A DNA stretch of 64,000 nt from Thiobacillus sp. 0-1251 (GTDB lineage Bacteria > Pseudomonadota > Gammaproteobacteria > Burkholderiales > Thiobacillaceae), in assembly GCA_001899305.1 (NCBI GenBank), contig MKWL01000001.1:124001-188000 (forward strand), in the 5' to 3' direction. The notes under the pieces were generated by a model, which had not been told where the DNA came from, did no database searches, and saw only the letters and a program-made list of their open reading frames with translations. Both the position numbers and the translations under genes were made by a program. Positions 38,012 through 51,367 of the stretch are shown here, piece by piece. Numbering within the stretch: the first letter of the stretch is position 1; each line of letters opens with the position of its first letter.

Positions 38012-38230
38012 TTACAGCCCGCAGCCCGGTTTGACGCCCGCCTTCTTCAGCATGATGTCCATCGGGCAGAAACGGGTGATGCCGGACTGGAACAGGTTGA
38101 AGCCGACGAAGGCGGTGAACCACAGCCACGACAGGTGGGTCATGTCGACGCTGCCGGAAAAGTGGGCCAACGCCAGCGACAGCATGATGAAAAATCCAGC
38201 GATGATACGGACCATACGTTCAACGGTCAT
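38012..38230 (-). CDS. DUF2892 small membrane protein (YgaP-like)
   Basis: A 72-residue protein with two hydrophobic helices (IAGFFIMLSLALAHFSG and SWLWFTAFVGFNLFQSGIT) and a short cysteine-bearing tail (RFCPMDIMLKKAGVKPGCGL). The 'FCPMxxxLKKxGVKxGC' ending is the DUF2892 signature. Such proteins accompany rhodaneses and sulfur-related transporters. It overlaps the RND pump gene by 4 bases (ATGA) and lies 9 bases before the rhodanese, so the three are co-transcribed. Confidence 0.88.
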   Translation of the reverse strand: MTVERMVRIIAGFFIMLSLALAHFSGSVDMTHLSWLWFTAFVGFNLFQSGITRFCPMDIMLKKAGVKPGCGL

Positions 38231-41200
38231 GATGAAACTCCTGCTTTCGGTGAAGAATGTTTACGGTAGTTGGCAGCGTAATACAGCACGGGAATCACCA
38301 CCAGCGTCAGCAAGGTGGAGACGAAAATGCCGAAAATCAAGGATACCGCCAGTCCGGAGAAAATCGGATCGTCGAGTATGAAGAAAGCGCCCAGCATGGC
38401 GGCCAGCCCGGTCAGCACGATGGGCTTGGCCCGGGTGGCCCCGGCCTGGATCACTGCTTCCTGGAAATCCATGCCCGCGGCCGCCTGCTCGTTGATGAAA
38501 TCGACCAGCAGGATCGAGTTGCGCACGATGATGCCGGCCAGAGCAATCATCCCGATCATCGACGTGGCGGTGAACTGCGCGCCGAGCAGGGCATGGCCCG
38601 GCATCACGCCGATGATCGTGAGCGGGATCGGCGCCATGATGACGAGCGGGGTCAGGTAGCTCTTGAACTGCGCGACGACCAGGATATAGATCAGTATCAG
38701 CCCGACCGCATAGGCGAGTCCCATGTCGCGGAAGGTCTCATAGGTGACCTGCCACTCGCCGTCCCATTTCAGGCTGAATCCGGTGTAGGGATCGGCGGGC
38801 TGGTGTATGAAGTACTCCGACAGCGTGCCGCCCTGCGCCAGCGGTTTGTCTTTCAGTGCGCCGCGCATTTCGAATAGGCCATACAGCGGCGAATCCAGCT
38901 TGCCGCCGGTGTCGCCGACCACGAAGACCACGGGCAACAGGTCCTTGTGGTAGATGGTTTTTTCGCGTGCGCTCGGCATCACTTCGATCAGCTCCGACAG
39001 GGGCACCAGGTTGCCGTCGTTGCCGCGCACCGTCAGTTTCAGTAAATCGTCGAGCCCGCTCTGACGTTCAGGCGGCAGGGTGATGCGTACCGGAATTTCG
39101 TACTTGGCGCCGCTGCCGTGGATGGGCGTGACATTCTCGCCCGACAGCCCCATCTTCATCGCTGCGACGATGTCCTTCTGTGCCACGCCGGCAACCGCGG
39201 CCTTGTTTTGCAGCACGCGCAGCACGAAGCGCTGGGCATCGTCTTCGACCGTGTCGTCGATGGCGACGATGCCCTTGGTTTTTTCGAAGACGCCACGTAC
39301 CTGCTTGGCGACCTGGATCTGCGCGTCGTAATCGGGGCCGTATATTTCGGCCACGATCGGTGACATGACCGGCGGCCCGGGCGGCACCTCGACCACTTTG
39401 ACGTCGGCACCGTGCTTCCTGGCGATCGCTTCGACCACCGGACGGATCGCCTGTGCAATTTCGTGGCTCTTGCGGTCGCGGTCGTGTTTGTCGAGCAGGT
39501 TGACCTGCAAATCCCCAACCTCGGGGCCTGAGCGCAGGTAATATTGCCGCACCAGGCCGTTGAAATTGATCGGTGCAGCGGTGCCGGCATAGGCCTGATA
39601 GTCGGTGACTTCAGGGACTTGCGCAACCGCAGTGCCCATTTCGCTCAGCACCTGGGCAGTCTTTTCCAGGGGCGTGCCAACCGGCATGTCGACGATGATC
39701 TGGAATTCGGACTTGTTGTCGAACGGCAGCATTTTCAGGATGACGAGCTTGACCATCGGCAAGGCGACCGACAGCAGAATGGCGACGCCGATCCCCAGCC
39801 ACAGCTTGCGACGCGCACCCTTGCCCTCGCTGCCGCGCAGGAAAGGCGTGAGGCGGGCGCGGAACAGGGCGAGCAACTTGTTGTCGCTTGCCGCGTGTGC
39901 GCCGTGCGCTTCTTGCTTGATCAGTTTCAGCGCCAGCCAGGGCGTGACGATGAAGGCGATGGCGAGAGAGATCACCATGCCGATCGAGGCGTTGATCGGA
40001 ATCGGGCTCATGTACGGGCCCATCAGACCGCTGACGAAAGCCATGGGTAGCAAGGCTGCGATCACGGTGAGGGTGGCGAGGATGGTCGGCCCGCCCACTT
40101 CGTCGACTGCGCGCGGAATGATCGCTTCGAGGCCGTCGTGGTCCAGATTCATGCGACGGTGAATGTTTTCCACCACCACGATGGCGTCATCGACCAGGAT
40201 GCCGATCGAGAATATGAGTGCGAACAGCGACACCCGGTTGAGCGTGAATCCCCAGGCCCATGAGGCGAACAGCGTGGCCGCGAGCGTCAGCAGCACTGCG
40301 GCACCGACGATCAATGCTTCGCGCTTGCCGATGGCGAACAGCACCAGCAAGACGACCGAGGCCGTCGCGAAAATCAGCTTCTGGATCAGCTTCTTGGCCT
40401 TGTCGTCGGCGGTGGCGCCGTAGTTGCGGGTGACGCTGACCTCGACACCTTCTGGCAAGACGCTGTTTTGCAGGCTGTTGACGCGTGCGATGACCTTTCT
40501 GGCCACGTCGACTGCGTTCTCGCCGGGCTTCTTGGAAATCGCCAGCGTGACCGCCGGGTAGGTCTGGCCATTGTCGGCCTTGTTTTTTCCGCCGGCGCCA
40601 GGGCCATGCCAGACGTAGCGGGTGGGCTGGTCGGGGCCGGCCGTCACGCTCGCCACATCGCTGATGTAGACCGGGCGGCCCTGTGCAACGCCGACGACAA
40701 GTTGACGGACGTCGTCGGCGCCGGTGAGGAAGGTTCCGGTCTGGACGAGAATTTCCTGGTTGTTCGAGACCAGCGTGCCGGAGGGTTGGGCTGCGTTGGA
40801 GACCTGCAGCGCGTCGCGGATGTCCTTGGGCGTAATGCCGAATGCGGCCATGCGATCGGGATCCATCATTACCCGCACGGCGCGGCCGGGGCCGCCGATG
40901 GTCGTGACTTCGCGGGTGCCGGAAATGCGCTTGAGTTCGATTTCGGCCGCGTGGGCGGCCTGCTCCAGTTCGTAGGCGCCGCGGTTCGGGTCGCGCGTCC
41001 ATAGGGTGACGGTGACGATCGGCACGTCGTCGATGCCGAGCGGTTTGATGATGGGCTCGCCGACGCCAAGCTCGGGCGAGACCCAGTCACGATTGGCCTG
41101 GATGGTGTCGTACAGCCGCACCAGTGCCTGGGTGCGGTCCTGGCCGACCAGATACTGCACGGTCAGAATCGCCATGCCGGGCTTGGAGACCGAGTAGATG

Positions 41201-41445
41201 TGCTCGATCCCGGCGATCTGCGACAGCACCTGTTCGGCGGGCGTTGCCACCAGGGCTTCGACGTCCTTGGCCGACGCGCCGGGGAAGGGGATGAACACGT
41301 TGGCCATGGTCACGTTGATCTGCGGCTCTTCCTCGCGCGGCGTGACCAGAATGGCAATCAGGCCCAGCAGGGCCGCGATCAATGCGATCAGCGGCGTGAG
41401 CTGGGACGTGAGGAAGAAACGGGCGATGCGTCCGGAGAGTCCCAT
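38227..41445 (-). CDS. RND-family efflux permease (AcrB/HAE-like)
   Basis: Proton-driven inner-membrane efflux pump, 1072 residues, in the AcrB/MdtB superfamily. It starts MGLSGRIARFFLTSQLTPLI with TM1, then two large periplasmic loops. The TM4 proton-relay pair is GILVDDAIVVVENIHRRM, containing the two adjacent Asp residues, and the C-terminal repeat has GIIVRNSILLVDFINEQAAA. The DD in TM4 places it with hydrophobic/amphiphilic exporters rather than metal pumps. Substrate unknown. Pairing with a DUF2892 protein and rhodanese, not an outer membrane factor, suggests a sulfur-linked or electrophile substrate; this is inference. Coupled to DUF2892 downstream. Confidence 0.92.
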   Translation of the reverse strand: MGLSGRIARFFLTSQLTPLIALIAALLGLIAILVTPREEEPQINVTMANVFIPFPGASAKDVEALVATPAEQVLSQIAGIEHIYSVSKPGMAILTVQYLVGQDRTQALVRLYDTIQANRDWVSPELGVGEPIIKPLGIDDVPIVTVTLWTRDPNRGAYELEQAAHAAEIELKRISGTREVTTIGGPGRAVRVMMDPDRMAAFGITPKDIRDALQVSNAAQPSGTLVSNNQEILVQTGTFLTGADDVRQLVVGVAQGRPVYISDVASVTAGPDQPTRYVWHGPGAGGKNKADNGQTYPAVTLAISKKPGENAVDVARKVIARVNSLQNSVLPEGVEVSVTRNYGATADDKAKKLIQKLIFATASVVLLVLFAIGKREALIVGAAVLLTLAATLFASWAWGFTLNRVSLFALIFSIGILVDDAIVVVENIHRRMNLDHDGLEAIIPRAVDEVGGPTILATLTVIAALLPMAFVSGLMGPYMSPIPINASIGMVISLAIAFIVTPWLALKLIKQEAHGAHAASDNKLLALFRARLTPFLRGSEGKGARRKLWLGIGVAILLSVALPMVKLVILKMLPFDNKSEFQIIVDMPVGTPLEKTAQVLSEMGTAVAQVPEVTDYQAYAGTAAPINFNGLVRQYYLRSGPEVGDLQVNLLDKHDRDRKSHEIAQAIRPVVEAIARKHGADVKVVEVPPGPPVMSPIVAEIYGPDYDAQIQVAKQVRGVFEKTKGIVAIDDTVEDDAQRFVLRVLQNKAAVAGVAQKDIVAAMKMGLSGENVTPIHGSGAKYEIPVRITLPPERQSGLDDLLKLTVRGNDGNLVPLSELIEVMPSAREKTIYHKDLLPVVFVVGDTGGKLDSPLYGLFEMRGALKDKPLAQGGTLSEYFIHQPADPYTGFSLKWDGEWQVTYETFRDMGLAYAVGLILIYILVVAQFKSYLTPLVIMAPIPLTIIGVMPGHALLGAQFTATSMIGMIALAGIIVRNSILLVDFINEQAAAGMDFQEAVIQAGATRAKPIVLTGLAAMLGAFFILDDPIFSGLAVSLIFGIFVSTLLTLVVIPVLYYAANYRKHSSPKAGVSS

Positions 41446-41457
41446 GCGTCTGTCCGT

Positions 41458-42498
41458 TTACTTGGCTGGCTGGTTGGCGGCGCTTTTGGCGTAGATGCCC
41501 GCCTTGACCGGCTCGAGCGCAATGACGTCGCCCGGGTTCAGCCCGGCCAGCACTTCCACCTGCCCGCGTGCGTTCGGCGTACCCAGCCGGACCTGCCGCA
41601 GGCTTACCTTGCCCTGATTGACGACATAGACCGCGGTGATTTCAGAACGCCGGACGACGGCGCTGAGCGGGATGGTGAGCTTGCGCGCGCTGGCCATGGA
41701 GAAATGCGCGCGCGCGAACATCCCGGGAATGACGCCTTCCACGTCGGCAGGCAGGTCGATGCGTACCTTGACTGTGTGGGTGGCCACGTCGGCGGACGGC
41801 AGCACGGTGATGCCGGTGGCGGCAATCCATTTGTTGAGCGAGGGAATCTCGACTGCGACGCGCGGTGCAGCCTTGACCTCGGCGAGCTTGTATTGCGGGA
41901 TGTTGGCAATGACCCGCATGTCCTTGGGGTCGAAGCCGGTCATCAGCGGTTTGCCGGGCGTAACGGTTTCGCCGACTTCGACATGGCGGGCGGCCACAAT
42001 TCCGGAAAACGGCGCGGTGATCACGGTGTAGCCACTGACCGCTGCGGTTTGTCCCGCGCCGGCGCGGGCAGCACGGGCGGCTGCCTCGGCTGAGCGGTAC
42101 TCGGCCGTGGCGCGATCTAGCGCGGCCTGACTGATGAATTTCTGCTGGAACAGTTGCTGCTGGCGTTCGTAATTGGCGCGTGCATTCTCCAGCGTGGCGG
42201 TAGCCTGGGCCACTTGTGCCTGGCTGCCCGTCGCGGCCGAGGACAACTCCTGGGCAGACAGCCGTACGATCACCGATCCTGCCTTGACGTAATCTCCCGC
42301 ATCGAAATTGACCGCGGCCACGCGTCCCGATACCTGGGCCGCGACGGTGGACTGCTTGACGGCCTCGACGGTGGCTTCGGTGCTGTAGCCTGTATCCGTC
42401 ATCTGGTAATTCACCGTGGTGGTGGTAAATGGCAGGGCAGCCCAGGCGGGTTGCGAAACGAGTACGGCACAGGCCAGCAGGCAGGCAAACTTAGACAC
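41458..42498 (-). CDS. RND efflux periplasmic adaptor (membrane fusion protein)
   Basis: Periplasmic adaptor for the RND pump, 346 residues. The GTG at 42498 has GGGAG 8 bases upstream and begins a good signal peptide (VSKFACLLACAVLVSQPAWA). The alternative ATG at 42525 has no ribosome-binding site and falls on the expected transcription start. Domains: lipoyl half (VEAVKQSTVAAQVSGRVAAV), a helical hairpin (residues about 80-130), the second lipoyl half (YTVITAPFSGIVAARHVEVG), a beta-barrel and a membrane-proximal domain. It is the first gene of the operon adaptor-RND-DUF2892-rhodanese-grxC. Confidence 0.9.
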   Translation of the reverse strand: MSKFACLLACAVLVSQPAWAALPFTTTTVNYQMTDTGYSTEATVEAVKQSTVAAQVSGRVAAVNFDAGDYVKAGSVIVRLSAQELSSAATGSQAQVAQATATLENARANYERQQQLFQQKFISQAALDRATAEYRSAEAAARAARAGAGQTAAVSGYTVITAPFSGIVAARHVEVGETVTPGKPLMTGFDPKDMRVIANIPQYKLAEVKAAPRVAVEIPSLNKWIAATGITVLPSADVATHTVKVRIDLPADVEGVIPGMFARAHFSMASARKLTIPLSAVVRRSEITAVYVVNQGKVSLRQVRLGTPNARGQVEVLAGLNPGDVIALEPVKAGIYAKSAANQPAK

Positions 42499-42526
42499 TG
42501 ACGCATCTCCCGAAAAATCGTCCATT

Positions 42527-42701: not shown

Positions 42702-43187
42702 TCAGGCACTACGCTTCTTCTTGCGGCCGCCGGCCGGAGATGAAATGTCGTGCACGAGGTGCAAGGGGGCCACGAGTGGGGGCATGGAGCTCCCCGTGAT
42801 ATCTGACAGGCGATAAAAATCCAGGGTGGCCAAGAAGCTTTTGCGTGCCTCGATCAGAATGGATTTCAGCGCGCATGCCGGCAGCATCGGGCAATTCTGG
42901 TGCTCGGCGCTGAAGCATTCCGCGATGTCCATGTTGTCTTCGGTGTCCCGTACCAGATCGCCTACGTTGATCATGTCTGGTGATCTGGCGAGCCGCATGC
43001 CACCCCCCTTCCCACGCACCGTCACGATGTAGCCGCATTGCGCCAGGCGGTGCACCACCTTCATCAGGTGCGTGGAGGGGATGTCGTACTCCTGCGCAAT
43101 GTCGGCAATGGTCGCCAAGCCGTTTGGGTGACGAGCCAGATAAATCATCACACGCAAGGAAAAGTCCGTGAATTTGGTCAGCCGCAT
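42702..43187 (-). CDS. nsrR: Nitric oxide-sensing Rrf2 repressor NsrR
   Basis: Iron-sulfur transcriptional repressor that loses DNA binding on reaction with NO. The 161-residue protein from the ATG at 43187 (GGAG site upstream) closely follows NsrR: MRLTKFTDFSLRVMIYLA, a winged helix with STHLMKVVHRLAQCGYIVTV, then RGKGGGMRLARSPDMINVGD. Three cluster cysteines C91, C99 and C105 lie in ECFSAEHQNCPMLPAC, and the tail helix is KSFLATLDFYRLSDI. A basic C-terminal tail (GGRKKKRSA) is extra. It is divergent from the ncgABC-nirK cluster, as in ammonia oxidisers, and a matching operator is seen there. Confidence 0.93.
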   Translation of the reverse strand: MRLTKFTDFSLRVMIYLARHPNGLATIADIAQEYDIPSTHLMKVVHRLAQCGYIVTVRGKGGGMRLARSPDMINVGDLVRDTEDNMDIAECFSAEHQNCPMLPACALKSILIEARKSFLATLDFYRLSDITGSSMPPLVAPLHLVHDISSPAGGRKKKRSA

Positions 43188-43241
43188 GGCATCTCCTTCG
43201 GTCTGCGTTATGCCATGTGGCGTTGTGCTGGATGCTCCGAT

Positions 43242-43256
43242 TGACACGTCATTATA
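43242..43256 (-). promoter_or_regulatory. Probable nsrR promoter -10 box
   Basis: A perfect TATAAT (43251-43256 on the minus strand) lies about 64 bases upstream of the nsrR ATG. No good -35 is visible. A small inverted repeat TGACACGTCA (43242-43251) abuts it and may be an operator half-site or coincidence. Confidence 0.45.
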
Positions 43257-43330
43257 TCTGGCCGCGTCTGGCCGTGCGCCCGGCCTCGGATTGGCACTTT
43301 ATAACCATTAGGAAATTGAAGCCCGGGTCC

Positions 43331-43359
43331 TTGTCATATGACATTCATTAAGATATATT
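43331..43359 (+). promoter_or_regulatory. ncgABC-nirK promoter
   Basis: -35 TTGTCA (43331-43336), 17-base spacer, -10 TATATT (43354-43359); each hexamer matches the sigma-70 consensus at 5 of 6 positions. The -10 is covered by the NsrR palindrome. The ncgA ribosome-binding site GGGAGG follows at 43376-43381. Confidence 0.75.
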
Positions 43360-43372
43360 TCATATATATCTT
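43350..43372. promoter_or_regulatory. NsrR operator
   Basis: Perfect-geometry 11-1-11 inverted repeat: left arm AAGATATATTT (43350-43360), one central base, right arm ATATATATCTT (43362-43372). This fits the published NsrR site form (AAGATGYATTT, one base, then its complement). It overlaps the -10 box and start region of the ncgA promoter, the position expected for a repressor, and the divergent gene encodes NsrR. Confidence 0.8.
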
Positions 43373-43385
43373 AAAGGGAGGCCAT

Positions 43386-44441
43386 ATGAAAAAAGGATTT
43401 CACCGTCGAATCAGCATCACCCGCGGCGCGGCCCTGTTGTGTCTGGGGGTGGCTTTGGGTCATCCCATGCCCGGGTATGCCGACAAGCGCACGTTCGAGA
43501 TGACGATCGAGGACACCAAGATCACGCTGGTCGACAAGCAGCAATTCCACACATTCGCCTTCAATGGTCAGGTGCCGGGCCCCTTGATTCATGTCAAGGA
43601 AGGCGACGAGCTCACCGTCAACGTCAACAATCTGACCACGTTGCCGCACACGATTCACTGGCACGGCATGTTGCAAAAAGGAACCTGGCGCATGGATGGC
43701 GTGCCGGACACCACCCAGTCTGCGATCAAGCCTGGCGACACCTTTACCTACAAGTTCATTGCCGAGCCGTCCGGCACCATGTGGTACCACTGCCATGTCA
43801 ACGTCAATGAGCACGCGGCGATGCGCGGCATGTGGGGCCCCTTTATCGTCGATCCTAAAACGCCCAAGCCGATCGAGAAGAAGGTGACGAAGGACTACAT
43901 CCTGATGTTGTCCGACTGGGCGTCGAAATGGGCTTTCAAGCCGGGTTACGGCGGCGTCCCCGGGGATGTGTGGGATTACTTCACGCTCAACGGCAAGGCG
44001 TTTCCCGATTCGCAACCGCTACGAGTGAACAAGGGCGACGTGGTGCGGATCCGCCTGATTGGTGCGGGCGAGCTGACCCACTCCATCCATATACACGGCC
44101 ACGTCTTCCAGGTGGCCTTCAAGGATGGCCGTCCACTGCCCATGCCCTACGAAGCGGACACCATCATGGTCGGCCCGGGCGAACGCTACGACCTCATCCT
44201 GACCGCCGACAACCCGGGTCGCTGGATGGTGCATGACCACGTCGACTCCCACACGATGAACGGCGACAAGCCGATGGGCGGCCTGATGACGGTCATCGAA
44301 TACAACGAAATCAACCGCAACGACCCGTTCTACGCCTGGAAGGACAAGGCGTTCGTGCCAGATTTCTACTACGAGGAGTCCCTGAAAAAGCCGTACGGCA
44401 TGTACGACGCGCCGGCCTTCAAGGGCCAGGCCATTCAATAA
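43386..44441 (+). CDS. ncgA: Two-domain multicopper oxidase NcgA
   Basis: Periplasmic two-domain blue copper oxidase, 351 residues, with signal peptide to about residue 32 (AALLCLGVALGHPMPGYA). Copper motifs in domain 1 are PHTIHWHG (H88, H91, H93) and MWYHCHVNVNEHAAM with type 1 ligands C136, H143 and M146. Domain 2 has ELTHSIHIHGHVF and WMVHDHVDSHTMN. This matches the NcgA component of the Nitrosomonas nirK cluster, a laccase-like oxidase whose substrate is uncertain. The start at 43386 has GGGAGG upstream; the longer frame from 43338 would cover the NsrR site. First gene of ncgA-ncgB-ncgC-nirK. Confidence 0.88.
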   Translation: MKKGFHRRISITRGAALLCLGVALGHPMPGYADKRTFEMTIEDTKITLVDKQQFHTFAFNGQVPGPLIHVKEGDELTVNVNNLTTLPHTIHWHGMLQKGTWRMDGVPDTTQSAIKPGDTFTYKFIAEPSGTMWYHCHVNVNEHAAMRGMWGPFIVDPKTPKPIEKKVTKDYILMLSDWASKWAFKPGYGGVPGDVWDYFTLNGKAFPDSQPLRVNKGDVVRIRLIGAGELTHSIHIHGHVFQVAFKDGRPLPMPYEADTIMVGPGERYDLILTADNPGRWMVHDHVDSHTMNGDKPMGGLMTVIEYNEINRNDPFYAWKDKAFVPDFYYEESLKKPYGMYDAPAFKGQAIQ

Positions 44442-44456
44442 GCGAAAGGATCGATG

Positions 44457-45149
44457 ATGAAGTTATCTCTTCTGGCCGCATTGGCCATGGGGCTGGTCGC
44501 AGCTCCGGCATTCGCGGCAGACAGTGTCGGGGCTGGCATCCTGAAATCGCAATGCATCAGTTGCCACGCCATTGTAAAACCGGACAACGCCAGTCTCGAC
44601 CGCCTGTGGGAGCGGAAGGGGCCGGACCTGTACTACGCAGGCAGCAAGTTCAACCGGCCCTGGCTGGAAAAATGGCTGCAGAACCCGGTACGCATCCGGC
44701 CTGCGGGTGAGTTCTACACCAAGCATATCAAGGGCAGCGACAAGGAGGACGTCGTGGATGAATCCACCCTGACGCCGCATGTAAAGCTGTCGAAAGCGGA
44801 TGCGGAGGCGGTGGCCGATGCGCTCATGGCGCTGACCGGCCCGGCGGACCTGGTGACCAAGGGCGCGTTCAAGGGCGACAAGGTGAGCATGTCCATGGGG
44901 GCGATGTTCTTCAACAAGCTCCGCGGCTGCGCCGCCTGCCATCAGGCCAAGCCTGGAACCGGCGGTTCCTCGGGGCCTGAGCTCTACACCGCAGGCGAGC
45001 GTCTGCAGCCCGATTACATCTACAGCTACATCAAGAACCCGCAGGCGGTCGATCCGCACATCTGGATGCCCACGCTCAACCTGGCCGAACCGGATCTGCA
45101 ACGACTGACGGGTTACATCCTGCAACTCAGCGCATCGGAGGGGAAATGA
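44457..45149 (+). CDS. ncgB: Diheme cytochrome c NcgB
   Basis: Periplasmic c-type cytochrome with two heme sites, CISCH (near residue 34) and CAACH (near residue 160). Signal peptide is MKLSLLAALAMGLVAAPAFA. AAAGGA lies 6 bases before the second of two tandem ATGs (44457; the other is 44454). Possible distal Met ligands lie in the second half (HIWMPTLNLAE). It follows ncgA by 15 bases and overlaps ncgC (ATGA). By analogy with the Nitrosomonas cluster it should relay electrons to NirK or to the NcgA oxidase. Confidence 0.88.
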   Translation: MKLSLLAALAMGLVAAPAFAADSVGAGILKSQCISCHAIVKPDNASLDRLWERKGPDLYYAGSKFNRPWLEKWLQNPVRIRPAGEFYTKHIKGSDKEDVVDESTLTPHVKLSKADAEAVADALMALTGPADLVTKGAFKGDKVSMSMGAMFFNKLRGCAACHQAKPGTGGSSGPELYTAGERLQPDYIYSYIKNPQAVDPHIWMPTLNLAEPDLQRLTGYILQLSASEGK

Positions 45150-45544
45150 AAATGAATTTCGGTCCGCGCATGCCCGCATTCCTGCAGGCAGGGCTCCTCG
45201 TGGCCACCTGTTTCGTGTCCGGCGGCCCTGCCTCGGCAGATGAGCCGTACACGCAGCGTGCGCTACGGAACTACAACACCTACTGCGTTCAGTGCCACGG
45301 CATCAACCGCAATGGCAGAGGAATCAACAGTCGCGATATGTCGGTCCAGCCACGGGATCACAGCGACGCGAAGGGGATGGGCGACATTCCCAACGAGGAA
45401 ATATTTCACGTCATCAAGGACGGCGGGCTGGCAGTGAACAAGTCGGTCCTCATGCCGGCCTGGGGCAACGTCATGAATGACGAGGAAATCAAGGAGTTGG
45501 TGGCGTATCTACGCTTTGTCTGCAACTGTGGTTCGGGTAAATAA
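45146..45544 (+). CDS. ncgC: Monoheme cytochrome c NcgC
   Basis: Small periplasmic cytochrome c, 132 residues, with signal peptide (FLQAGLLVATCFVSGGPASA) and one heme motif CVQCH in RNYNTYCVQCHGINRNGRG. The distal Met is probably in VLMPAWGNVMNDEEIKELV, a cytochrome_CBB3-type ending. Tail FVCNCGSGK adds two cysteines of unclear role. Overlaps ncgB by 4 bases and is followed 14 bases later by nirK. Likely an electron donor in the nitrite reduction chain. Confidence 0.88.
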   Translation: MKMNFGPRMPAFLQAGLLVATCFVSGGPASADEPYTQRALRNYNTYCVQCHGINRNGRGINSRDMSVQPRDHSDAKGMGDIPNEEIFHVIKDGGLAVNKSVLMPAWGNVMNDEEIKELVAYLRFVCNCGSGK

Positions 45545-45558
45545 CAAGGAGCTTCAAA

Positions 45559-46494
45559 ATGAAACAAAACAAGATGCTGGGGATGGCGCTGGCAGGCGTG
45601 ACGGCATTGTCGATGCTGTCATTCCAGGCCGAGGCGAAAACGGTGCAAGTCACGCTGCACGCAACGGAAGTGGATTTGCCGATCGATAACAAGGGGACGA
45701 TGTACCGAACCTGGACCTTCGACGGCAAGGTGCCGGGCCCAGTGGTTCGGGTTACCGAAGGCGACACGGTCGAGTTCACGCTGATCAACGACAAGACCAA
45801 CAAGAATTCACACTCCATGGATTTCCATGCGGCGCGACTGGATGTGGTGAAGGACTTCGGGTCCATCAAGCCGGGCGAGGAGAAGCACTACACTTTTACC
45901 GCCAATTATCCAGGCGTGTTCTTCTACCACTGCGGCTCCGATCCGATGATCCAGCACATCGCACGCGGCATGTTCGGGACAATCATCGTCGATCCGAAGG
46001 ATGCCCATGCCATGCCGAAGGCGGATCGCGAATACGTGCTGATCCAGTCCGAGCTCTATCCGAACCCGGACGCCAAGGAAGACATGATGCAGAACAAGTG
46101 GAGCAACGTCATGTTCAACGGCGGCATCTTCAAGTATGACCCGGTGCACGATCCGGCAGCGACCCGTTGGTTGCAGGCCAAGCCGGGCGAGCGTGTGCGC
46201 GTCTACTTCGTCAACGCGGGTCCCAACGAGTTTTCATCCTTCCATCCGATCGCGGGCATCTGGGATGCGGTCTACCCCAGCGGCAACCCGAAGAACGTGG
46301 AGCATGGCCTGCAAAGTTTTGTCGTGGGACCGGGCGACGCAGCGACATTCGACCTGATCTCGCCCAAGGAAGGCGCCAATGCGATTGTGACCCACTCGCT
46401 GAAGGCTGCTCTCACGGGGGCCATCGCAGTGATCATGTTCAGCAATGATGCCGATCCCAACATGGGCCACGGCGAGCAGATCCTCGTTCGCTGA
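45559..46494 (+). CDS. nirK: Copper-containing nitrite reductase NirK
   Basis: Periplasmic copper enzyme reducing nitrite to NO. The 311-residue protein has a signal peptide (MLGMALAGVTALSMLSFQAEA) and all catalytic residues. Type 1 Cu ligands are H85, C125, H133 and M138 (HSMDFH, FFYHCGSDPMIQHIARGM). Type 2 Cu ligands are H90, H124 and H279 (VTHSLKAALTGA). The catalytic pair is D88 and H229 (SSFHPIAGIWDAV). The C-x7-H spacing of the type 1 loop is one shorter than in Alcaligenes/Achromobacter NirK and resembles the ammonia-oxidiser type. Last gene of the NsrR-controlled cluster, followed by a strong hairpin. No NO reductase gene is seen nearby. Confidence 0.93.
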   Translation: MKQNKMLGMALAGVTALSMLSFQAEAKTVQVTLHATEVDLPIDNKGTMYRTWTFDGKVPGPVVRVTEGDTVEFTLINDKTNKNSHSMDFHAARLDVVKDFGSIKPGEEKHYTFTANYPGVFFYHCGSDPMIQHIARGMFGTIIVDPKDAHAMPKADREYVLIQSELYPNPDAKEDMMQNKWSNVMFNGGIFKYDPVHDPAATRWLQAKPGERVRVYFVNAGPNEFSSFHPIAGIWDAVYPSGNPKNVEHGLQSFVVGPGDAATFDLISPKEGANAIVTHSLKAALTGAIAVIMFSNDADPNMGHGEQILVR

Positions 46495-46511
46495 TTGCAA
46501 GAAAGTGATGG

Positions 46512-46546
46512 GCGTCGAGCACCCAGCTGAGATGGGTGCTCGACGC
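46512..46546 (+). terminator. Strong hairpin after nirK
   Basis: Perfect 13-bp stem: arms GCGTCGAGCACCC (46512-46524) and GGGTGCTCGACGC (46534-46546), 9-base loop, 17 bases after the nirK stop. There is no T tract, so it may stabilise the nirK mRNA end or act as a rho-assisted end; it marks the boundary to the copper genes. Confidence 0.6.
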
Positions 46547-46571
46547 TCACTCAACATATGGAGACCCTCCC

Positions 46572-46865
46572 ATGAATATCAAACGACAGTCGAACCCCGT
46601 CGTACGCGTGCTGGCGAATGTATCGTTCCTTGCCGTACTCGCCGGCGTCGCGCCGGGATACGCCGCTCAAGTGGCAAGCCAGGATGGAGGCGTGCCTGCA
46701 ACACATACCAGGATGTCCAGCAACGACCGGCCGGATTCGCTCGCACCGCACAATGCCGAGGACAACTGGACATGCCCCATGCATCCCGAGATTCATCGCC
46801 ACGAACCCGGAAAGTGCCCCGTGTGCAAGATGAAACTGGTCAAGGCCAAGCCGAAGAACGTCTAG
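46572..46865 (+). CDS. Small exported heavy-metal-binding domain protein
   Basis: A 97-residue periplasmic protein with signal peptide (VRVLANVSFLAVLAGVAPGYA) and one heavy-metal-binding domain: WTCPMHPEIHRHEPGKCPVC then KMKLVKAKPK. The CPMHP and CPxCxM pattern is the module found at the N-terminus of many CusB proteins; the next gene's product carries its own copy. It probably binds Cu(I)/Cu(II) or a related soft metal. It may replace the chaperone CusF, which is absent. It lies between nirK and the cusB-like gene, 57 bases before the latter. Confidence 0.8.
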   Translation: MNIKRQSNPVVRVLANVSFLAVLAGVAPGYAAQVASQDGGVPATHTRMSSNDRPDSLAPHNAEDNWTCPMHPEIHRHEPGKCPVCKMKLVKAKPKNV

Positions 46866-46922: not shown

Positions 46923-48239
46923 ATGACCTCGTCGTTTGTTCGTACGTTGTATTACGGTGTGCTGCTGGCCGTTCCTGTCTGCATGGCAGGCGTCGCGTAT
47001 TTTGCAGAACGGCTTCCGGGCGTGAGGTCGGATAGCATCGTGCAGTCCGCGCAGGCTTCGGATCGCCTTGAGCCGCTGGATGGAACGGCGGGCATCCGGA
47101 AAATGTGGGTCTGCCCCATGCACCCCAATATTCTCCAGGACCACCCCGGGTCTTGCCCGATATGCGGAATGGATCTGGTGGAGACGGGCGCTGCACATGA
47201 TCATCGCACAGCGGGCATACAGGTCGACACGGCGTTGCAGCAGCGCATGGGCATGCGGTTGGCGGATGTGACGACGCACCGTATGAGCCGGGCGGTGCAT
47301 ACCTACGGCAACGTCGGAATCGACGAGACTTCCCTTTACAGCATCAGCCCCAAGATCGACGGCTGGATTCGCAAACTGCATGTCAGCGCACCGGGACAGC
47401 GGGTCACCGCAGGGCAGATCCTGTATGAGATCTATTCGCCCGAACTGGTGCAGCGCCAGCGCGAATATATCGAGCTGCTGCAGCGGCGGGATCAGCTGCT
47501 GGAAAACATGACGGATTATTCCGGCCAGAATGCCCAAATGGCCGCCAGCTTGGCACGCGAACGCATCCGTACGCGGGATAAGTTCGCCTATGCCGATGTC
47601 AGCGACGCCACGCTCGCCGCCATCGAGTCCACCCGCCGCACGATTGACCGTGTACCGGTGTATGCCGCCCGATCCGGCTTTGTCACCCAGATCGGCGTGC
47701 GGGAGGGGGACTACGTGACGCCGATGACCAAGCTGTTGACCGTGGCCGATGTCGCCACGGTCTGGATCGACATTGTCCTGTACCCCGACCAGCTCGAATG
47801 GGTCAGGGAGGGCGACGACGTGACCGTGACGTTTCCTCATTCCGGGCGACCGCCGCTGACCGGGCATCTCGCGTTCGCCTTGCCTACGGTGGATGGCGCG
47901 ACGCGCACCGCCCGGGCACGCCTGACGGTGAAGAACACGGATCGCCAGCTTCGGCCGGGCGCATTCGTGGATGTCGTCATTGCCACGCATCCGCGAACGG
48001 CGCTCGCGGTACCGCGTTCGGCCGTGATTCGTACCGGCCGGGGCGACCGGGTCATGCTGGCGCGGGAAGGCGGGCATTTCATGCCGGTTCCCGTGGAAAC
48101 AGGCATCGAGAGCGGCGACCTCGTCGAGATCACCGACGGATTGCAGGAGGGCGCGCGGGTCGCCGTGAGCGGGCAGTTTCTGCTGGATGCGGCGGCCTCC
48201 TTGAATGATTCCATGCAGCGCATGCAGAACAGCCGCTGA
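46923..48239 (+). CDS. cusB: CusB-like heavy metal RND adaptor
   Basis: Periplasmic adaptor of a copper/silver-type efflux system, 438 residues. An N-terminal membrane segment (residues 8-24) is followed by a heavy-metal-binding domain (MWVCPMHPNILQDHPGSCPI then CGMDLVETG, about residues 61-90). The adaptor core follows: lipoyl region ISPKIDGWIRKLHVSAPGQR, helical hairpin with YIELLQRRDQLLENM, and barrel GFVTQIGVREGDYVTPMTKL. C-terminal regions match CusB. The stop is 2 bases before cusA. No outer membrane component gene (cusC) is in the cluster. Confidence 0.88.
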   Translation: MTSSFVRTLYYGVLLAVPVCMAGVAYFAERLPGVRSDSIVQSAQASDRLEPLDGTAGIRKMWVCPMHPNILQDHPGSCPICGMDLVETGAAHDHRTAGIQVDTALQQRMGMRLADVTTHRMSRAVHTYGNVGIDETSLYSISPKIDGWIRKLHVSAPGQRVTAGQILYEIYSPELVQRQREYIELLQRRDQLLENMTDYSGQNAQMAASLARERIRTRDKFAYADVSDATLAAIESTRRTIDRVPVYAARSGFVTQIGVREGDYVTPMTKLLTVADVATVWIDIVLYPDQLEWVREGDDVTVTFPHSGRPPLTGHLAFALPTVDGATRTARARLTVKNTDRQLRPGAFVDVVIATHPRTALAVPRSAVIRTGRGDRVMLAREGGHFMPVPVETGIESGDLVEITDGLQEGARVAVSGQFLLDAAASLNDSMQRMQNSR

Positions 48240-48241
48240 GC

Positions 48242-51200
48242 ATGATCCGGCGAATCATCGAGTGGTCGCTCGCCAACCGATTGTTGGTGCTGCTGGCCAC
48301 GCTGCTGCTGGCGGCCTGGGGCGTATATTCCGCGCAGACTATTGCGCTGGATGCGATACCGGACCTGTCCGATACCCAGGTCATCGTCAAGACGGCGTAT
48401 CCCGGCCAGTCGCCACAGCTCGTTGAAGATTCGGTGACCTATCCGCTGACGTCGAGCCTGTTGTCGGTGCCGGGCGCCACGGCCGTGCGCGGTTTTTCCA
48501 TGTTCGGCGAGTCCTATGTCTACGTCATTTTCAAGGACGGCGTCGATCCGTACTGGGCACGTTCCCGCGTGCTGGAATATCTGAGCCAGGCGGCGTCACG
48601 GCTGCCGGCGGGGGTGACGCCCACACTGGGACCCGATGCATCCGGCACAGGCTGGATATTCGAATACGCGCTGGTGGATCGCCACCATCGCTACGATGCG
48701 GACCAGTTGCGGGCAGTCCAGGATTTCTACCTGAAATACGAGTTGCAGGGCCTGCCCGGCGTGGCCGAGGTGGCCAGTGTCGGCGGCATGGTGCGCCAGT
48801 TCCAGATCGAGGTGGATCCGAACCGCCTGGCCGCCTACGGGATTTCGCTGGAACAGGTCAGCCATGCGGTGCGCGACAGCAATCTCTCGGGCGGCGGGTC
48901 GGTCATGGAGATGGCGCGCGCCGAATACATGATCCGCGCCAATGGCTATCTGAAGACGCTGGACGATTTCCGCACAATCCCTTTGGGCACGGATGCCGAG
49001 GGTGTCCCCATTCGGCTGCAGGATGTGGCACATGTCCAGACGGGACCGGAAGCGCGGCGAGGGGTAGCCGACCTCGACGGCGAAGGCGACGTCACCGGCG
49101 GTATCGTGGTCATGCGTTATGGCAATAATGCGCTGGAAACCGCAACACGCGTCAAGGCCCGTCTCAAGGAACTGCAGGCGGGCCTGCCGCCCGGTGTCGA
49201 GCTGGTGATCACGTATGACCGCTCCGGTCTCATCACGCGCGCCATCGACAATCTGCGCAGCAAACTGGTGGAAGAGACCTTGATGGTGGCGCTGGTCTGT
49301 CTGCTGTTCCTGTTCCACCTGCGCTCGTCCCTGGTTGCCGCGCTCACCCTGCCGGTCGGCATCCTCGCGGCGTTCATTGTGATGAAGCAGCAGGGCGTGA
49401 GCGCCAACATCATGTCTCTAGGCGGCATCGCCATCGCCATCGGCGCCATGGTGGATGCGGCCATCGTGATGATCGAGAACATGCACAAGCACCTTGAGCG
49501 GGCCGGACCCGGCAGCGACTATTGGGCGGTTGCGCGCGCCAGTTCGGTCGAAGTCGGCCCCGCGCTCTTCTTCTCGCTGCTCATCATCACGGTGTCCTTC
49601 CTGCCGGTTTTTGCGCTCTCGGGCCAGGAAGGGAAACTGTTCGCGCCGCTTGCCTACACCAAGACTTATGCCATGGCGGCGAGCGCAGCGCTGGCCGTCA
49701 CGCTGACGCCGGTGCTGATGGGCTATTTCATTCGCGGCCGTATCGTCCATGAGCGCAGCAATCCGCTCAACCGCATGCTGCAGGCGCTTTATCGGCCGGC
49801 ACTGCTGGCGTCGCTGAATCACCCCAAACGGGTGCTGCTGCTGGCCGTCCTGCTGCTGGCCAGCGCGGCATGGCCCGTATCCCGTCTGGGTAGCGAGTTC
49901 ATGCCGCCGCTGTACGAGGGTGATCTGCTGTATATGCCGACCACGCTGCCGGGCGTGTCCGTCGACGAGGCCGCCAATATTCTGCAGATTACCGATCGGC
50001 TGATCCGCCAGATGCCGGAAGTGGCGCGCGTGTTCGGCAAGGCTGGCCGCGCCGACAGCGCAACCGACCCTGCGCCGCTGTCCATGCTGGAAACCACCAT
50101 CTTGCTTAAACCAAGAAATGAATGGCCGCCGGGTGAGACAGTAGAGGAACTGATCCAGAAGCTTGACCGTGCCGTACAGTTGCCCGGTCTGACCAATTCC
50201 TGGGGCTATCCGATTCGTACCCGCATCGACATGTTGTCCACCGGCATCCGCACAGCGGTCGGCATCAAGATCACCGGCCCCGATTTGGCCGGGATCGCCG
50301 CGCTGGCGGAAACGCTCGAAGCCACGCTGAAGAACGTCCCCGGAACGCGCGCCGTATTCGGCGAACGCGTCACCGGTGGGCGGTATCTGGATATCGATAT
50401 CGACCGCGCACAGGCTGCGCGCTACGGCGTAACCGTTGCGGCGATTCAGCGCCTGATCCAAAGCGCCATCGGCGGTGAGAACATCGGTACGGTTGTGGAC
50501 GGGCGCGAACGGTTTTCCATCAACCTGCGCTATCCGCGCGCTTTGCGTGACTCGATGGAGACGCTTGCCGAAAGCCGGATTGCCACCCCGTCCGGAATCC
50601 AGGTGCCGCTCGGGACAGTCGCCCGCCTGCGCATCGCCGACGGGCCGGCCGAAATCAAGAGCGAAAACGGACGCCTGACCGGCTACGTCTATCTCGACAT
50701 CGAAGGCCGGGACTTGGGCGGCTACGTCGAAGCGGCCCGGCAGGTGGTCGACACCCAGGTCAAGCTGCCGCCTGGCTACGCCATCGCCTGGTCCGGCCAG
50801 TACGCGAATCTGCAGCATGCCAGGCAAAAAATGCTGTGGCTGATTCCGCTCACCGTGCTGCTGGTTCTGCTGCTGCTCTACCTGCACTTCCGCGAGCCAG
50901 GCAAGGTGGTATTGGTCGCCGTCTGCCTGCCGTTTTCCCTGGTGGGCGGATTCTGGCTGGTCTACTGGCTAGGCTACAACTTGTCGGTGGCGGTGGGCGT
51001 CGGCTTCATCGCGTTGGCGGGCGTGGCGGCGGAGTTCGGTGTCGTGATGTTGCTCTATATCGACAAGGCCGTCGAGGAATCCCGGCAGTTGGGCTGCCAG
51101 TCGGTTGATCGCGTCGTGCTCCGGCAGGCGGTCGTCCAGGGCGCGCTCATGCGTGTGCGGCCCAAGATGATGACAGTGGCGGTGATCGTGGCGGGCCTGC

Positions 51201-51367
51201 TGCCCGTCATGTTCAGCGATGGTGCCGGCTCCGAAGCGATGAAGCGGATTGCCGCGCCGTTGGTGGGTGGCATGCTGACGGCACCGCTGCTGTCGCTTTT
51301 CGTCATCCCGGCGCTGTACTGGAGTTGGCAGGGGCGTGGCGCGCATTCTCAAACTGGAAATGATTGA
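48242..51367 (+). CDS. cusA: CusA/CzcA-family heavy metal efflux RND permease
   Basis: Inner-membrane proton-driven metal pump, 1041 residues, HME-RND family. It starts MIRRIIEWSLANRLLVLLAT. Features: TM4 motif GAMVDAAIVMIENMHKHLER, typical of CusA/CzcA with a single Asp replacing the DD of drug pumps; porter-domain VPGATAVRGFSMFGESYVYV; and the conserved GIRTAVGIKITGPDLAGIAA. The C-terminal half has GVAAEFGVVMLLYIDKAVEE and MRVRPKMMTVAVIVAGLLPV. The Met-rich and GIRT features favour Cu(I)/Ag(I). Directly follows cusB. Converges on arsR. Confidence 0.92.
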   Translation: MIRRIIEWSLANRLLVLLATLLLAAWGVYSAQTIALDAIPDLSDTQVIVKTAYPGQSPQLVEDSVTYPLTSSLLSVPGATAVRGFSMFGESYVYVIFKDGVDPYWARSRVLEYLSQAASRLPAGVTPTLGPDASGTGWIFEYALVDRHHRYDADQLRAVQDFYLKYELQGLPGVAEVASVGGMVRQFQIEVDPNRLAAYGISLEQVSHAVRDSNLSGGGSVMEMARAEYMIRANGYLKTLDDFRTIPLGTDAEGVPIRLQDVAHVQTGPEARRGVADLDGEGDVTGGIVVMRYGNNALETATRVKARLKELQAGLPPGVELVITYDRSGLITRAIDNLRSKLVEETLMVALVCLLFLFHLRSSLVAALTLPVGILAAFIVMKQQGVSANIMSLGGIAIAIGAMVDAAIVMIENMHKHLERAGPGSDYWAVARASSVEVGPALFFSLLIITVSFLPVFALSGQEGKLFAPLAYTKTYAMAASAALAVTLTPVLMGYFIRGRIVHERSNPLNRMLQALYRPALLASLNHPKRVLLLAVLLLASAAWPVSRLGSEFMPPLYEGDLLYMPTTLPGVSVDEAANILQITDRLIRQMPEVARVFGKAGRADSATDPAPLSMLETTILLKPRNEWPPGETVEELIQKLDRAVQLPGLTNSWGYPIRTRIDMLSTGIRTAVGIKITGPDLAGIAALAETLEATLKNVPGTRAVFGERVTGGRYLDIDIDRAQAARYGVTVAAIQRLIQSAIGGENIGTVVDGRERFSINLRYPRALRDSMETLAESRIATPSGIQVPLGTVARLRIADGPAEIKSENGRLTGYVYLDIEGRDLGGYVEAARQVVDTQVKLPPGYAIAWSGQYANLQHARQKMLWLIPLTVLLVLLLLYLHFREPGKVVLVAVCLPFSLVGGFWLVYWLGYNLSVAVGVGFIALAGVAAEFGVVMLLYIDKAVEESRQLGCQSVDRVVLRQAVVQGALMRVRPKMMTVAVIVAGLLPVMFSDGAGSEAMKRIAAPLVGGMLTAPLLSLFVIPALYWSWQGRGAHSQTGND

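Follow-up and report, generated by a model that had tools for sequence, protein, structure and literature searches.

Clusters in which ncgABC precedes nirK, the gene for copper nitrite reductase, have been placed in Nitrosomonas europaea, in Nitrobacter and in a Zetaproteobacteria metagenome, according to the available parts of the papers concerned (PMC5080386, PMC3603346, PMC4940428). The part available of PMC1274295 predicts control of nirK, norB, dnrN and nnrS by the regulator NsrR in proteobacteria, cites proof for N. europaea nirK and mentions no Thiobacillus ncg cluster, and the accessible portions of the literature on T. thioparus nirK (PMC8061750, PMC5458468, PMC5748958) do not mention the cluster. 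Here we describe ncgABC-nirK and a divergent nsrR-like gene in a 64,000-nucleotide stretch of Thiobacillus sp. 0-1251 (contig MKWL01000001.1, positions 124,001 to 188,000; hereafter, the window). The host is a sulfur-oxidising Thiobacillus, and its genome (3.66 Mb, 24 contigs) has a stated completeness of 100%. This kind of cluster is not new, and here a sulfur oxidiser carries it; less expected are how widely it occurs outside nitrifiers, the conservation of an operator-like site, and the repeated association with genes for a copper pump and for cytochrome maturation. With confidence at about the midpoint, we read it from sequence as a putative nitric oxide (NO)-induced periplasmic nitrite/NO module that acts in detoxification and probably in denitrification and has copper transport linked to it. 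Its main features are as follows.

42702..43247, minus strand: nsrR-like gene for an Rrf2 repressor (PF02082, 6e-34; likely start ATG 43187)
43331..43359, plus strand: sigma-70-like promoter of ncgA, TTGTCA-N17-TATATT (consensus match only)
43350..43372, no strand assigned: NsrR-type operator AAGATATATTTCATATATATCTT (0 mismatches to the degenerate pattern; overlaps the -10-like hexamer)
43386..44441, plus strand: ncgA, two-domain multicopper oxidase (Cu-oxidase_3, 5e-39)
44454..45149, plus strand: ncgB, cytochrome c with two CxxCH motifs (Pfam and motif positions)
45146..45544, plus strand: ncgC, cytochrome c with a single CxxCH motif; overlaps the 3' end of ncgB (Pfam and motif position)
45559..46494, plus strand: nirK, copper nitrite reductase of the ncg-linked type with all ligand motifs (Cu-oxidase_3, 6e-14)

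All five genes are full-length open reading frames (ORFs) with intact motifs, as judged from the ORF list and Pfam. An earlier note, made from the letters of the window, had proposed nsrR, a multicopper oxidase, a diheme and a monoheme cytochrome and NirK at 42702-46494. ORFs, Pfam support and CxxCH counts agree with those five genes, and the proposed end was set too early, as the gene string runs past 46494 into hmbd, cusB and cusA. The ATG at 43386 is more likely to be the ncgA start than that at 43338, because the operator and the -10-like hexamer lie at 43350-43372 and GGGAGG at 43376-43381; for nsrR, ATG 43187 is more likely than GTG 43247.

The N. europaea locus (L072, NZ_FUWK01000004.1) shares with the window the gene order, the divergent nsrR and an NsrR-type site upstream of ncgA, which bears out the Nitrosomonas-type arrangement with an NsrR-like partner that the earlier note had recognised in the window. 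Identities are 69, 62, 62 and 77% for NcgA, NcgB, NcgC and NirK, and 45% for the Rrf2 regulator and N. europaea NsrR. Unlike N. europaea, the Thiobacillus host is no ammonia oxidiser and its NcgA falls in a separate clade; hmbd, cusB and cusA follow nirK in Thiobacillus, whereas they do so in no Nitrosomonas locus with room for them. The Nitrobacter winogradskyi cluster (PMC5080386; L081 among our loci) is likewise complete, with an NsrR homologue upstream and no amoA match in our searches. It differs from the window in that the NsrR homologue lies on the ncgA strand, with a gene for a TPR protein between the two in the related L082, and in having no NO reductase (NOR) match; L081 is too short downstream for cusBA to be judged, and other Nitrobacter loci with room lack it, unlike the window. 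In a further non-nitrifier, Zetaproteobacteria contig 2306 from the Lo'ihi iron mat, nirK lies beside ncgB- and ncgC-like cytochrome and multicopper oxidase genes; that contig has two multicopper oxidase genes, unlike the window, and the available part of its description mentions neither NsrR nor a copper-pump gene (PMC3603346).

The wider comparison rests on a scan of a species-genome collection with NcgA, which returned 348 stretches at E ≤ 1e-3, some of which may encode other multicopper oxidases. From these the top 80 (55-99% identical) were retained, so the sample leans towards the type found in the window; together with 20 regional loci, minus two duplicates, they make 98 distinct loci without the window and 99 with it. 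The order ncgA-ncgB-ncgC-nirK is present in 90 of the 98, seven run off the contig, and L043 reads nirK-B-C-A. Locus titles include Nitrosomonas, Nitrobacter, Duganella, Massilia, Herbaspirillum, Cupriavidus, Sphingopyxis, Phenylobacterium, Rhodanobacter, Methylacidiphilum, Leptospirillum, Nitrospirota, Acidobacteriaceae and Nitrospinota. The earlier note had treated the window as a second lineage, an idea overtaken by this spread through many non-nitrifiers and by the prior reports from Nitrobacter and the Zetaproteobacteria metagenome, as far as the available text of both goes (PMC5080386, PMC3603346). The closest relatives of the window NcgA are those of the metagenome-assembled genome (MAG) UBA2410 (99%; L044, labelled T. 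denitrificans) and T. thioparus DSM 505 (95%; L046). A 99% match also comes from L045, a MAG labelled Rhizobium, with neighbouring genes 93-99% Thiobacillus-like.

Both copper enzymes belong with their Nitrosomonas counterparts. NirK has His85, Asp88, His90, His124, Cys125, His133, Met138, His229 and His279, residues that we assign to the type 1 and type 2 copper sites and the catalytic positions of a copper nitrite reductase; the complete ligands and the Asp88/His229 pair noted earlier were thereby confirmed at those positions. Its best PDB sequence match is 4kns (534 bits; next 205), and that of NcgA is 3g5w (567 bits; next 436, then a laccase at 150), entries that we take to be the structures of N. 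europaea NirK and of an N. europaea NcgA-type protein. Against TIGR02376, the family of canonical copper nitrite reductases, the window NirK (199 bits) and N. europaea NirK (198) both fall below the cut-off of 296. A quick tree of 113 rows united 92 ncg-linked NirK and four others in one clade (Shimodaira-Hasegawa-like approximate likelihood ratio test (SH-aLRT) 100), the four coming from genomes with no NcgA found, and left the remaining 17 NirK-family rows outside; a first tree, in which the node had a support of 25, held a misplaced long row (L146_out), which was removed. One ncg-type NirK, 80% identical to that of the window, is encoded at L154:1471-2331 in genome G328, in which no NcgA was found at E ≤ 1e-60.

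NcgA carries the motifs HTIHWHG, WYHCHVNVNEH, HIHGH and HDHVD, with histidines and cysteine invariant in 21 aligned sequences (window included), which presumably bind a single type 1 copper in the first domain and a trinuclear copper centre. At 351 amino acids it is of the two-domain 3g5w type and not a CopA, CueO or three-domain laccase (best 167 bits against a cut-off of 479). The CxxCH motifs of NcgB lie at residues 34 and 159 and that of NcgC at residue 47. A quick NcgA tree puts the window in a 31-row clade (SH-aLRT 95) with the Nitrosomonas and Nitrobacter branches outside; 29 of its rows are cusBA-linked (window included), one is not (L103) and one is not judgeable (L045). Two loci well away from this clade, L041 and L119, have cusBA too. 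The phylogenetic checks proposed in the earlier note thus set NirK apart from canonical denitrifier enzymes and NcgA apart from ordinary laccases. PDB and family scores and the two trees rule out a pairing of an ordinary denitrifier NirK with a CopA laccase.

Upstream of ncgA, a predicted site suggests that the cluster is apparently switched by an NO-sensing repressor. The regulator has Asp8, Cys91, Cys99 and Cys105, and its cysteine region aligns with that of 5n07, which we take to be NsrR of S. coelicolor. Sites were scored against AAGATGYATTT-N-AAATRCATCTT, our assumed NsrR operator consensus, with single-base shuffles as a first control and real windows of the same loci as a second. Of 99 loci, 78 have a site of at least 16/22 ahead of ncgA, whereas control windows taken from other parts of these loci reach that score in 7 of 980 cases; the ncgA site is present in 49/54 loci with nsrR in the locus and 29/45 without. 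Searched genome-wide (3.66 Mb) with at most two mismatches, the pattern occurs at three places and the reversed pattern at none. One site precedes ncgA, another lies 47 bases upstream of the start of a quinol NO reductase (qNOR) gene, and the third 14 bases ahead of a DUF2249 gene. Next to the qNOR site is another NsrR-like gene in divergent orientation, and three Thiobacillus relatives share this site (17-18 of 22) together with its divergent regulator. The predicted sites of the window agree with the NsrR regulon predicted for beta-proteobacteria in the available part of PMC1274295. Between 43180 and 46960, three promoter-like sites were found, against a mean of 1.5 in shuffled sequence (standard deviation 1.4). 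No FNR/DNR-like box (TTGAY-N4-RTCAA) was found in the 400 bp preceding ncgA, either in the window or in ten Thiobacillus-type relatives, and FNR/DNR control of the window ncgA was dropped on that ground. A weak trend links NsrR loss to NirS, the other NO-forming nitrite reductase sought, among Thiobacillus: nsrR is missing from 4/6 genomes with a strong NirS-family match and 0/4 without (own genome included), the genomes not being independent. In L049, L050, L053 and L054 neither nsrR nor a site was seen, and each of these genomes has a strong NirS-family match; despite such a match, L047 and L051 keep both, and L053 has less than 1 kb of upstream sequence. In the host genome, L165:92-1486 holds the DUF2249 gene and a 376-aa membrane-like protein behind the candidate NsrR site; the latter has no Pfam or NCBIfam match and is NnrS-like by eye only.

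The host and other genomes were searched by protein or family for nitrogen-cycle genes, and in many only part of the first-look candidates was scored, so that the count of one NirK in the host, like the class-wide count of NcgA given below, is a lower bound. The host gave no amoA match in a search that was positive in three of five ammonia-oxidiser genomes and missed the N. europaea draft and a Nitrosomonas MAG, so that single absences in drafts mean little; an earlier amoA search also found none in the host, but no control was positive in it. HAO-type multihaem cytochromes (PF13447), sought in 12 genomes, were found in four of five ammonia oxidisers and in Methylacidiphilum, and not in the host. 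On these amoA and PF13447 results we reject a hidden ammonia oxidiser; the earlier note had likewise seen no mark of one in the window. The note had also asked after norB and nirS; an NO reductase is present in the host, and NirS gave no match. The genome encodes one NarG above cut-off, one qNOR, one NosZ above cut-off and at least one TIGR02376 match at E ≤ 1e-30, the window NirK (5/9 first-look candidates scored). As NarG, qNOR and NosZ occur without a NirS match, the window NirK is, by these searches, the only recognised NO-forming nitrite reductase of the host, which on paper has a route from nitrate to N2 with this enzyme as the predicted nitrite step. The same gene set, with NirS not found, leaves detoxification and respiration inseparable by sequence. 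That the cluster is simply a respiratory nitrite reductase with two cytochromes, NcgA being an accessory, would account for this set and for the qNOR gene carrying the same kind of site, but we think it unlikely, given a probable control of the NO-responsive repressor type, the missing FNR/DNR-like box, and the retention of the cluster both by other Thiobacillus with a strong NirS-family match and by genomes without a NOR match.

Across the class, NcgA was found at E ≤ 1e-60 in at least 21 of 369 sampled genomes (own genome included). Co-occurring genes were tallied in 50 ncg genomes (the host and 49 of the genomes of the 80 loci; the other 31 loci, L069 among them, and 20 class-sample genomes with NcgA lie outside this tally). 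Five have an amoA/pmoA-family match, three above cut-off, and 31 a NOR match (E ≤ 1e-8); 18 have no amoA-family, NOR or strong NirS-family match, among them a Leptospirillum MAG, Nitrobacter and Duganella. Genomes of this last kind invite the idea that the cluster is a periplasmic NO:O2 oxidoreductase that clears NO without NO reductase: under oxygen, NirK would oxidise NO to nitrite and pass electrons via NcgC and NcgB to NcgA, which would reduce O2 to water. The idea gains from nirK standing beside ncgA in 91/91 distinct loci with enough sequence (90 ordered, one rearranged), although loci found via NcgA show that nirK is kept with ncgA and not the converse. It gains, too, from N. winogradskyi, which consumes NO, with NO production not demonstrated while nirK is expressed, and from the negative fitness effect of nirK in N. 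europaea ncgABC mutants, both as given in the available part of PMC5080386. Yet four same-clade NirK come from genomes without NcgA found, and ammonia oxidisers with nirK alone are listed in the accessible part of PMC4940428. The ordinary ligands and Asp/His pair of NirK leave no sequence mark of a reversed reaction, qNOR and NosZ are encoded by the host, draft MAGs are numerous among the NOR-less genomes, and other NO sinks, such as flavohaemoglobin, lay outside the search. We judge NO oxidation an improbable main role, while the sequence itself favours neither nitrite reduction over NO oxidation nor the reverse. A literature search on nirK with NsrR and blue copper oxidase, NO oxidation or two-domain multicopper oxidase found nothing.

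Downstream of nirK the plus strand continues as follows.

46509..46549, plus strand: stem-loop between nirK and hmbd, no U-tract (inverted repeat; -40.4 kcal/mol, z -5.9)
46572..46865, plus strand: hmbd, small protein with one heavy-metal-binding domain (HMBD; PF19335, 2e-15; signal-like N terminus by eye)
46923..48239, plus strand: cusB-like gene for a periplasmic adaptor with an N-terminal HMBD (PF16576, 1.5e-60; PF19335, 1e-14)
48242..51367, plus strand: cusA-like gene for a Cu(I)/Ag(I) RND pump (PF00873; 1292 bits to solved CusA)

As in E. coli CusBA, the pump belongs to the CusA family with the methionine triad (Met565, Met615 and Met664, presumably the positions of E. coli M573, M623 and M672), and the adaptor bears an HMBD; unlike E. 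coli CusBA, it lies behind an NsrR-linked nitrite-reductase cluster and its unit has no outer-membrane channel of the one type searched. No such channel gene was found in the unit in the 98 loci with one OEP query, which divergent channels could escape; the sole OEP match was the source of the query itself, in L049 on the opposite strand, and no channel was seen among the window ORFs after cusA. At least 3 kb of sequence past nirK is available in 83 distinct loci, and in 30 of them cusB and cusA lie downstream on the same strand; cusA is found 30 times per 0.42 Mb after nirK versus three times per 1.21 Mb elsewhere in the same loci. The triad is present in 29/31 linked CusA (window included), the gaps being in the truncated L052 and L059. 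ResB lies directly after cusA in 13 of 27 cusBA-linked loci with at least 1.5 kb past cusA, none of the 13 a Thiobacillus, and a CcsA-like match occurs in 12 of these 13, at a position in the locus that is not given. A narrow literature search (nirK with cusA) found no printed report of nirK-cusBA linkage. Taken further, this linkage would make the cluster a copper-stress module in which NcgA, chiefly a cuprous oxidase, and HMBD-CusBA guard against Cu(I) and NirK gains a copper supply. We consider that quite improbable: one clade plus two distant loci with cusBA, the conserved triad and the two-domain form of NcgA are consistent with it, but the likely control is of NsrR type, no copper regulator was recognised beside the unit (the ArsR-family gene downstream has the opposite orientation), cusBA is missing downstream in 53/83 loci, and the unit has no channel gene of the type searched.

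The intervening stem-loop is a near-perfect 20-nt inverted repeat and was not called as a plus-strand terminator; it is possibly a processing or stabilising hairpin. L044 and L046 have a corresponding hairpin, and that of L047 is unrelated. Examples of ResB and CcsA-like genes after cusA are found at L066:17514-20608 and L105:17810-20766, both non-Thiobacillus, with Pfam support for ResB in L066 and for the CcsA-like gene in both. A second RND pump and adaptor pair adjoins nsrR on the minus strand (38227-42525); it recurs in L044-L047 (RND 92-100%, adaptor 85-99% identity), with weaker homologues in L048 (39% and 31%).

Returning to an NO-induced nitrite/NO module with linked copper transport, we infer NO induction, the direction of electron flow and the roles of NcgA and CusBA along the following lines. 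Without NO, the [Fe-S] repressor NsrR would occupy the operator over the ncgA promoter; NO would destroy its cluster, NsrR would leave, and ncgABC-nirK(-hmbd-cusBA) would be transcribed, with qNOR co-induced under the same kind of site. NirK would reduce nitrite to NO with electrons arriving via the small c-type cytochromes NcgB and NcgC. NcgA, with its full complement of candidate oxidase copper ligands, may draw on the same cytochrome pool, or oxidise Cu(I), and pass electrons to O2, which would keep the branch balanced in the presence of oxygen, and HMBD-CusBA may handle copper for, or released from, the periplasmic copper enzymes of the module. In this Thiobacillus, NO would proceed through qNOR and then NosZ, so that the module would guard against nitrosative stress and probably also supply the nitrite step of denitrification.

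Several observations weigh against this scheme. NCBIfam scores the regulator at 120 bits for RirA and 117 for NsrR, under both cut-offs, and we call it NsrR-like because it fails that for NsrR (182); N. europaea NsrR also fails it at 142 bits, so the cut-off leaves out that NsrR type too. The operator consensus was assumed, not derived from these loci, and 21/99 loci are without a good site, including the Thiobacillus-type L049, L050, L053 and L054, where no nsrR was seen either. A purely denitrifying role is hard to square with the 19/50 ncg genomes that gave no NOR match and the 10/50 in which a NirS-family match is strong (E < 1e-100). In the window, the hairpin separates nirK from hmbd and weakens the predicted co-transcription into cusBA, and the 53 of 83 loci without cusBA downstream include all Nitrosomonas and Nitrobacter loci with room, so cusBA is not needed for the core function. 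A bolder proposal, which we think improbable, is that ncgABC-nirK would be a widespread NsrR-switched periplasmic electron-transfer unit for NO handling, in which NirK and an O2-reducing multicopper oxidase oxidise NO to nitrite; it would not be nitrifier equipment, the nitrifier version being one branch, and over part of its range would come with its own HMBD-CusBA pump and ResB/CcsA.

Because the window NirK and N. europaea NirK fall under the NCBIfam NirK cut-off, counts of nitrite-reducing genomes may miss those with a NirK of this kind. What NcgA acts on and which way the ncg-linked NirK works bear on where nitrifiers form and lose NO, and non-nitrifiers with the cluster (Duganella, Cupriavidus, Herbaspirillum and Thiobacillus) would allow its study free of an ammonia-oxidation background. 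The linked genes for a copper pump and for cytochrome c maturation are a clue that, in the lineages that have them, the unit brings helpers for both of its metal-centre types.

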